Assembly: GCF_000377205.1 (NCBI RefSeq)
Contig: NZ_KB897905.1
Coordinates: forward strand, 62,001 to 126,000
Source of the DNA: Thioalkalivibrio sp. ALJ3
Lineage (GTDB): Bacteria; Pseudomonadota; Gammaproteobacteria; Ectothiorhodospirales; Ectothiorhodospiraceae
Direction of reading: 5' to 3'
DNA length: 64,000 bases
The notes below the pieces were generated by a model. That model was not told where the DNA came from and made no database searches. It worked only from the letters and a program-made list of their open reading frames with translations. How positions within the stretch are numbered: the stretch's first letter is position 1; the number at the start of each line of letters is the position of its first letter. Below, piece by piece: positions 29,296-29,961 of this stretch. A program made the translations under genes and the position numbers.

Positions 29296-29496
29296 GGATT
29301 TCTCCTCTCCTGTTTTCTTGACCTTGTTGGCGAACATCGACTCGAAGTTCGCACGATTCCTGAAGGATTCGACGCAGAGGGCCCGGAAGAATTCCCGTAC
29401 GTTGCGGGTGGGGCCTCGATCAAGGGAGTGTAGCGAGTTTGGGACGCGGGCAGGGAAAGCAACGGCATTGATGGCCGCACCGCCTTGCGGGGGACA

Positions 29497-29653
29497 GCTG
29501 GGGACCCGGATGATTCGGCGGCTGCGCCGCCTCACCCCTTCGGGGCTGCACGCGCAGCGCGTGCAGTGCTCCGCTGCGCTCCGCCGAACCTTCCGGGTTC
29601 AAACCCTGGGCTCACTCAAATATCCATAGAAAAGGGCCCCGCGAGGGGGCCCT
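29497..29653. repeat. Structured tRNA-associated repeat, unit 1
   Basis: About 157 bp, nearly identical to 29717-29876. An outer stem pairs GATTCGGCGG (29512-29521) with CCGCCGAACC (29581-29590). Inside it are hairpins GGCGGCTGCGCCGCC, CCCCTTCGGGG and CTGCACGCG-CAG-CGCGTGCAG. To the right is a tRNA T-arm-like CGGGTTCAAACCCTGG and a GGGCCCC hairpin. Its left edge (CTGGGGACCCGGAT) is a decayed copy of the tRNA-Gln 3' end. Confidence 0.8.
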
Positions 29654-29716
29654 CCCTGACGTAACGACCAGTCCAAAGCAAATGGCGGTGAGCCCCTTCG
29701 AGGGGCACACCGCCAT

Positions 29717-29876
29717 GGCTGGGGGACCAGGATGATTCGGCGGCTGCGCCGCCTCACCCCTTCGGGGCTGCACGCGCAGCGCGCGTGCAGTGCTCCGCTG
29801 CGCTCCGCCGAACCTTCCAGGTTCGAACCCTGGGCTCGCTCAAATATCCATAGAGAAGGGCCCCGCGAGGGGGCCC
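29717..29876. repeat. Structured tRNA-associated repeat, unit 2
   Basis: Second copy of the repeat, about 8 differences by eye. It starts with GGCTGGGGGACCAGGAT, matching the 3' end of the adjacent tRNA-Gln exactly as read on this strand, then the multi-hairpin block and CCAGGTTCGAACCCTGG. The inner hairpin differs by a two-base insertion that keeps the stem paired. 29654-29716 between the units holds another hairpin (GGCGGTG...CACCGCC). Confidence 0.8.
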
Positions 29877-29887
29877 TTCTCTATGGA
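29847..29887 (-). terminator. Long hairpin directly after tRNA-Gln
   Basis: TCCATAGAGAAGGGCCCC paired with GGGGCCCTTCTCTATGGA around a short GCGAG loop, immediately downstream of the tRNA CCA end. It could define the 3' end of the tRNA transcript, although only TATTT follows rather than a full T tract. It overlaps the right part of repeat unit 2. Confidence 0.55.
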
Positions 29888-29961
29888 TGGCTGGGGGACC
29901 AGGATTCGAACCTGGGTTGACGGAGTCAGAGTCCGTAGTCCTACCGCTAGACGATCCCCCA
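29888..29961 (-). tRNA. tRNA-Gln (CTG anticodon)
   Basis: 74-nt tRNA with encoded CCA. Acceptor stem TGGGGGA/TCCCCCA, D arm with GTCTAGCGGTAGGAC, anticodon stem ACGGA/TCCGT enclosing the loop CTCTGAC (anticodon CTG), and T arm CCAGG-TTCGAAT-CCTGG. It lies 39 bp after rpsI on the same strand and may be cotranscribed with rplM-rpsI. Confidence 0.95.

Follow-up and report, generated by a model that had tools for sequence, protein, structure and literature searches.

tRNA-linked repeats (TLRs) were first described in Escherichia coli in 1978 and have remained without an established function; PMC8144298 counts 22 of them at ten loci in E. coli K-12, and describes TLRs for this species and one subgroup for the Enterobacteriales. 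According to the same paper, the 3' end of a TLR carries 18-19 bp identical to the upstream tRNA or rRNA; the members RrA, RrB and RrF lie between two terminators, are produced by read-through and bind Hfq and CsrA; the 173-nt RrB ends 3 nt beyond the copied tail, which the authors suggest is recognised by RNase E; and an older claim that TLRs have a role in recovery from starvation was retracted. The Rfam entry RtT covers the members at tyrT. Other studies report RtT-type RNAs with RT-PCR support in Pasteurellaceae, where they are placed upstream of tRNA genes (PMC4986893), give the Salmonella rtT RNA as a 175-bp VNTR (PMC2658671), link rtT-like clusters with BIMEs in one study (PMC2965389), and count E. 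coli rttR among the sRNAs holding a REP (PMC12306157).

Two tandem units behind tRNA-Gln(CTG)

The locus described here lies in a 64,000-nt stretch of the genome of Thioalkalivibrio sp. ALJ3, here called the window. tRNA-Gln(CTG) is encoded by the minus strand, so that the repeats are downstream of the gene and read leftwards, in the order tRNA, terminator-like hairpin, unit 1, extra hairpin, second terminator-like hairpin and unit 2 (Table 1), with unit 1 starting 55 nt past the tRNA. A preliminary description of this DNA had reported two repeats downstream of tRNA-Gln, and these were recovered as blocks of 62 nt (98% identity) and 97 nt (96% identity) at a spacing of 222-224 nt. The copies of the tRNA 3' end that it noted were likewise found: the near unit carries the 18-nt suffix of the tRNA (ATCCTGGTCCCCCAGCCA), within a 19-nt block at 29715-29733 that is exactly identical to 29887-29905, and the far unit has a decayed copy (ATCCGGGTCCCCAGCTG) at the tail position. 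The T-arm-like sequence it mentioned was located in the left arm of unit 1, where 11 nt (TTCGAACCTGG) equal the tRNA T-arm in inverted orientation, and the two-base insertion in an inner hairpin does preserve pairing (GCACGCGCGCTGCGCGTGC compared with GCACGCGCTGCGCGTGC). On its points, the description holds.

Table 1. Features of the tRNA-Gln(CTG) locus in window coordinates.
Feature	Position	Strand	Support or remarks
tRNA-Gln(CTG), gene whose 3' end is copied	29888-29961	minus	ARAGORN; Rfam tRNA 61.4 bits
First of two terminator-like hairpins, directly 3' of tRNA-Gln	29846-29888	minus	perfect 19-nt inverted repeat
Unit 1, model-matched part (closing stem and five hairpins)	29727-29833	minus	R2 89 bits, E 4.2e-18
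Unit 1, Rfam RtT match	29716-29849	minus	34.6 bits, E 4.8e-5; below gathering score of 45
Unit 1 left arm, T-arm-like CCAGGTTCGAACCCTGG / CCAGGGTTCGAACCTGG	29817-29833	minus	
Unit 1 tail, exact 18-nt copy of tRNA 3' end including CCA	29716-29733	minus	
Extra hairpin in spacer between units 1 and 2	29682-29716	minus	inverted repeat I6
Second terminator-like hairpin, ahead of unit 2	29633-29653	minus	copy of the hairpin part of the first; repeats D1, I1
Unit 2, model-matched part	29505-29609	minus	R2 76 bits
Unit 2, Rfam RtT match	29496-29624	minus	26.1 bits, E 0.0065; below gathering score
Decayed tail of unit 2	29496-29511	minus	

Both terminator-like hairpins are predicted to terminate transcription. 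Stretches resembling the extra spacer hairpin are present, by eye, in some sister arrays. The upstream frames on the same strand appear by eye to be ribosomal proteins S9 and L13, and the next downstream gene a metallo-hydrolase (frames only). A 62-aa frame on the plus strand (29732-29920), which runs antisense through unit 1 and part of the tRNA, is probably spurious. No plasmid copy of the array was seen among the 42 records returned for a 481-nt query (tRNA and units), none of which covered 80% of it; the best 20 of the 42 covered 16-18%, about its tRNA end.

The two window units are almost certainly TLRs of the family of E. coli RtT. They lie directly downstream of a tRNA gene, they occur in tandem (two in the window, with 1 to 9 per gene elsewhere), the 18-19-bp tail equal to the upstream gene is exact in unit 1 and decayed in unit 2, and their core is homologous to that of E. 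coli members by covariance models in both directions. R1, a model that drew on 14 of 35 Gln(CTG) units from the bacterial family of the window and on none from E. coli, found all four E. coli tyrT units (43.6-45.7 bits), and R2, a wider model, matched E. coli rrnB weakly; since both models include the window units, the R2 scores of these units are no independent test. In the other direction, Rfam RtT (RF00391) matched both window units, neither of which reached its gathering score of 45 bits; 5 of its 8 matches in this genome exceed that score, and among 14 control genomes it had a match in E. coli only. The feature is real and a member of the known TLR kind, an identity that we regard as firm, while any function is something we infer.

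The closest relatives, the E. coli K-12 TLRs at tyrTV (rttR/RtT), share with the window units the position directly behind the gene, the identical tail of 18-19 nt, tandem copies and a common hairpin core. Apart from falling under the Rfam cut-off, the window units differ from RtT in that each is preceded by a terminator-like hairpin, and in that the 10 units of this genome are hosted by Gln, Ser and Arg genes, none by tRNA-Tyr. The window layout (terminator-like hairpin, unit, terminator-like hairpin) is that of the E. coli 5S rRNA TLRs RrA, RrB and RrF, which have a core between two terminators and a gene-copied tail (PMC8144298; rrnB sequence). Unlike the window units, however, the 5S members lack, by eye, a left arm derived from a T-arm, and the R2 match to rrnB is weak (22.1 bits, E 0.0058); at rrnB the core sits, by eye, inside a second copy of the 5S end.

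Distribution and copying of the host gene

Searched with R2, this genome contains 10 units (E <= 0.1) at six tRNA loci (Gln twice, Ser three times, and Arg); nine of them follow a tRNA gene, and the tenth, one of the two at Gln(TTG), is merged into a degenerate tRNA-Gln copy that precedes the intact gene. The further finds of R1 at other tRNA genes were two units at Ser(GCT), one at Ser(CGA), two at Ser(GGA), two at Gln(TTG) and one at Arg(ACG). The preliminary description had proposed a search for copies beside other tRNA genes, and such copies are present; its fallback, a local duplication only, was ruled out because model and pattern searches gave units behind other RNA genes. REPs are interspersed, and although REP/BIME elements are also hairpin-rich intergenic repeats, all 10 model matches in this genome are at tRNA loci, with no interspersion of that kind.

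A DNA search of 47 genomes of the family gave a match at E <= 0.001 in 36, a number that includes weak matches in five genomes (G028, G041, G042, G043 and G045) to something other than this array. At 27 of the 30 loci L004-L033, tRNA-Gln(CTG) lies beside the match or its array (ARAGORN), L032 holding a partial copy of this tRNA, and the Gln(CTG) arrays of the family have one to four units. Beyond the family, at least 59 of 369 genomes in a class sample had an R1 match at E <= 0.001 and at least 43 of 398 in a phylum sample had an R2 match at E <= 1e-5 (21 of them from one family in another class), both being lower bounds since only 10 or 9 candidates were scored per genome. A short sequence pattern spanning the loop of hairpin H4 and the following linkers (CCCGAAGGGYGARG...YGARTMATCC) returned at least 117 stretches over genomes, and 108 of those listed hold a model match counted here; among the matches listed, pattern and model together reached Escherichia, Citrobacter, Photorhabdus, Yersinia, Serratia, Pantoea, Alteromonas, Marinobacter, Amphritea and Lysobacterales. 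Many Gammaproteobacteria, and another class too, thus have units, whose host genes encode Ser, Gln, Tyr, Arg, Lys, Asp and further tRNAs as well as tmRNA.

Altogether there were 374 matches to R1 or R2, of which 370 were counted (in one set, 150 of 154 were aligned). Some loci sample the same place twice (e.g. L195 and L026) and units within one array are often identical, and the main counts were repeated without identical entries. A tRNA or tmRNA was present upstream, on the same strand and within 2.5 kb, for 313 of the 370 units, a figure that includes units behind tRNA-like fused copies (L100); the hosts were Tyr (104), Gln (78), Ser (56), Lys (53), Arg (13), Asp (3), Glu (3), Asn (1), Thr (1) and tmRNA (1). 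The other 57 had no detected upstream tRNA or tmRNA. Thirty-three of these cannot be judged for host because they are within 420 nt of the locus end; among the remaining 24, eight have a direct tail copy of at least 14 nt upstream (four in L272, two in L103, one in L111 and the second unit of L222); fused, orphan and unexplained units make up the rest. In L222, L251 and L202, units have tails that resemble a tRNA end with no tRNA detected upstream, and they are possible orphans after gene loss. The longest array seen has ten tandem model matches about 176 nt apart (L263, 1162-2825). A group II intron domain (RF02012, 115.5 bits) was found less than 1 kb from a tRNA-Tyr TLR array (L073, 2232-2379).

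Each unit tends to end in a copy of its own gene. Over the 313 units, the longest exact match to the own 3' end averaged 16.4 nt, compared with 5.8 nt to the tails of other genes, and it was 18 or 19 nt in 228. Among 50 distinct tails, the own tail was neither beaten nor equalled in 269 of the 313 units (249 of 292 without identical entries). The Gln(TTG) tails of different genomes illustrate this, as CCTGGCACCCC, CCTGGCGGCCC, CCTGCCGGCCC and CCTAGCGCCCC each equal the tail of the tRNA beside them. Two units, in genomes of different classes, lie behind tmRNA genes (L149 and L288). The tmRNA of L288 has GGGTTCAATTCCCGCC in place of the usual GGTTCGAATCC, a peculiarity that the unit shares in three places: the inverted arm has GGCGGGGATTGAACCC, which differs from the inverted gene by one mismatch, a direct piece has GCGGGTTCA, and the tail has ATTCCCG; the unit of L149 has nine nt of tail as in the tmRNA (AAACCCGCC). 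Because acceptor parts are lost in both, these tails are partial copies.

On the left side of many units there is, in addition, an inverted copy of part of the host gene. In 260 of 278 distinct units, the left arm matched the own gene better than it matched, on average, genes of other types (9.3 compared with 6.5 nt). This average is a weak measure, since T-loops are alike and the left region matches the part of the gene before the tail almost as well in sense orientation (mean 8.3 nt), GGTTCGA being present there too. Better evidence for the inverted arm is given by the long matches. The two Arg(ACG) units from the genus of the window have 17-18 nt, and several Ser(GGA) units have 20-21 nt, variable-arm letters included; units behind Lys, Glu and Asp have little or no inverted arm. 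A mimic of a tRNA minihelix (T-stem and acceptor-stem helix with a free CCA) was considered as a general rule and rejected, as it does not fit Gln(CTG) or Ser; some Gln(TTG) units, in which up to 13 nt of the left arm are complementary to the tail, do fit it.

Extra copies called tRNA-Gln by ARAGORN stand ahead of an intact Gln(TTG) gene in two loci, one in L095 (2766-2839) and three in L100 (1141-1644). The copy in L095 has its T-loop fused, after GGTTCGA, with the hairpin core, as would result from a deletion joining the tRNA to its TLR.

Covarying hairpins and GNA triloops

As a single strand, the window unit folds below its shuffles both as RNA and as DNA on either strand. The RNA fold of 29715-29890 had a z of -7.4, with 0 of 200 shuffles as good, a value to which the terminator-like hairpin contributes part, and the fold of the unit alone had a z of -3.6, matched by 1 of 200 shuffles. 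For the window unit, the best single-sequence fold has a long stem (GGUUCGGCGG/CCGCCGAAUC), from which the covarying consensus differs by having a closing stem and five hairpins. The preliminary description had suggested looking for covariation among copies. A first count on 14 close sequences found 1 pair with changes on both sides and was uninformative. On 127 aligned units (119 distinct), in an alignment that was fitted to the consensus structure and favours the pairing figures, 94.4% of cells were paired, 23 of 28 pairs had changed on both sides (13.3 in shuffles) and cells with a double change numbered 347 (95.9 in shuffles). When the partner was slid by one to three columns, pairing dropped to 28-49%. 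By eye, the letters of the H2 stem vary widely between loci and its pairing is kept. As a sign of RNA over DNA, the wobble pairs were mixed: with one unit taken per locus, G-T (152) exceeded A-C (84), an order that is reversed in H2.

The loops of the hairpins are also distinctive. In 320 distinct units, 998 of 1403 simple hairpins had triloops, and 620 of these 998 were GNA, with all four bases occurring at the middle position, compared with 30 of 378 after one letter shuffle per unit. The complement of GNA, TNC, accounted for 6 triloops, and the best hairpins of the spacers before units had GNA in 3 of 94. Going by the titles of Yoshizawa 1997 and Hirao 1994, GNA loops reportedly form extraordinarily stable DNA mini-hairpins. 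The DNA and RNA energy tables that were run hold no bonus for a GNA triloop.

Array history and explanations of the units

A proximal unit was present at 200 genes; 133 of these have it alone and 67 have an array of two to nine. A tail of at least 18 nt was retained by 103 of the 133 single units, and within the arrays by 60 of 67 first, 30 of 37 middle and 34 of 67 last units (without identical entries, 56 of 62 first and 30 of 62 last), a pattern consistent with recombination between tail and gene or with selection acting on the first unit. For 204 of 254 units, the nearest core at another locus was behind a tRNA of the same amino-acid type, and 125 of these 204 had a core at least 90% identical there (121 of 250 without identical entries); for the other 50 the nearest core, at a different type, was less similar. 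No core at least 90% identical was found at a different type among the 254 units, so recent jumping between tRNA types is not seen, and the comparison suggests that cores are inherited along with their tRNA type. Arrays that mix two divergent unit types were seen in L011, L014, L015 and L016, and in all four the odd one adjoins the tRNA. In L103, L111, L272 and L032, a Ser(CGA), Arg(ACG) or Gln(CTG) gene is cut near the anticodon, as it would be after insertion of an integrated element, and its 3' part keeps the TLR array; among these loci, the neighbouring genes were read in L272.

The explanation that we consider likely is that of a TLR trailer RNA whose tail is kept in step with the gene by recombination. 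Family identity, location, copying of the own gene, conserved structure and variable copy number are its observed part. A TLR occupies the 3' trailer of a stable-RNA gene; the 3' end of that gene is partly copied a second time, the hairpin-rich core is set within this copy, and the unit thus ends in the gene's own last 18-19 nt. RNA polymerase would occasionally read through the first terminator and the trailer would fold; the copied tail would be cleaved by tRNA-finishing enzymes, and a short-lived RNA of about 110-175 nt would be freed before the second terminator, as reported for the TLRs of E. coli rRNA operons. With a strong-looking terminator hairpin separating the unit from the tRNA, transcription of the unit may be rare. 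The direct repeats of 18-19 bp would allow slippage or gene conversion, by which the tail would follow the gene and the array expand or shrink, and it is probably such a recombination step that keeps the tails in step. That the units have a selected function as trailer RNA is about as likely as not. The preliminary description had proposed that recombination or insertion had occurred repeatedly at the end of the tRNA, or that the repeats are a structured tRNA-derived transcript. Recombination is supported by the changing array sizes and the decayed last tails, and a transcript has support as well, one being reported for E. coli members; insertion by a known integrase was tried and received no support from core identities, tblastn or the position of the tRNA breaks, and the units proved to belong to a known family, not to a local event.

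A possible though doubtful alternative is a neutral repeat that has no function and is kept by mutation alone, slippage maintaining the tail and template switching maintaining the stems and the inverted arm. Template switching across hairpins is known as quasi-palindrome correction, and the hairpins could stay perfect by a mutational process of this sort instead of by selection. Tail and inverted arm do both track the gene, last tails decay, and half units and orphan units exist, all of which suits a neutral repeat. However, the letters conserved in the pattern of the H4 loop and its linkers lie outside the reach of stem correction, and the agreement of nearest cores in amino-acid type also argues against it. 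More speculatively, TLRs might be one ancient family with a portable hairpin core able to settle behind any stable RNA gene (tRNA, tmRNA or 5S rRNA), its flanks being rewritten as a direct copy of the last 18-19 nt and an inverted T-arm copy; the core would be both a DNA-level device and an RNA, and its sense-strand GNA-triloop hairpins would promote the template switching that rewrites the flanks.

It is unlikely that the units act at the DNA level, as extruded or single-strand hairpins of the tRNA-sense strand that serve, for example, as a roadblock to replication or transcription. The excess of GNA over TNC triloops, the rarity of GNA in spacer hairpins and the reported stability of such DNA mini-hairpins point in this direction, but according to PMC8144298 the members in E. 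coli rRNA operons are transcribed, and proteins bind them as RNA. As the energy tables give GNA no bonus in DNA or in RNA, the DNA reading rests on literature.

We judge it quite improbable that the units are non-autonomous mobile DNA elements, inserted at the 3' ends of stable-RNA genes by a recombinase acting in trans on folded single strands. The recurrence of one core behind many genes, among them tmRNA and, with a weak match, E. coli 5S rRNA, the hairpins with GNA triloops and the arrays with two divergent unit types could be read in this way. Against it, cores at least 90% identical were shared within an amino-acid type and never across types, and integrase-like frames were present at 1 of 219 loci with units (tblastn with two by-eye integrase queries from that locus, in mostly 1.5-kb flanks), with no other copy among them, though a helper could act in trans; moreover, the four disrupted tRNAs are cut near the anticodon, not at the TLR tail. 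The weakest proposal, that the units are decoy attachment sites drawing integrases off the tRNA, is highly improbable: the tails do repeat the part of the tRNA gene that many integrases use, and one viral-labelled contig (L272) has four units with an integrase gene, by eye, just behind, yet those same tRNAs are broken around the anticodon and one E. coli unit lies behind 5S rRNA, which is not known as an integrase target.

What the present analysis contributes is a comparative set of about 370 matched units behind many genes, with a covarying consensus, a copying rule measured against 50 tails and new hosts such as tmRNA; the role of TLRs and the way in which they follow their genes are therefore directly testable in several tractable bacteria. 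Within the literature searched, the breadth of the family, the tmRNA hosts, the gene-following inverted arm, the GNA loops and the descent of cores with tRNA type seem to be new; the wider distribution, the tmRNA cases, the inverted arm and the GNA loops were not found in the open-access literature, a scope outside which most subscription journals lie.

Two further observations concern the surroundings of the arrays. Four viral-labelled contigs (L269-L272) contain TLR units, in three of them at the end of the stretch, and are probably host DNA beside integrated phages. In L029 and L031, tRNA-Gln is followed downstream by half a TLR unit and then, by eye, by a HEPN/nucleotidyltransferase-like frame pair.
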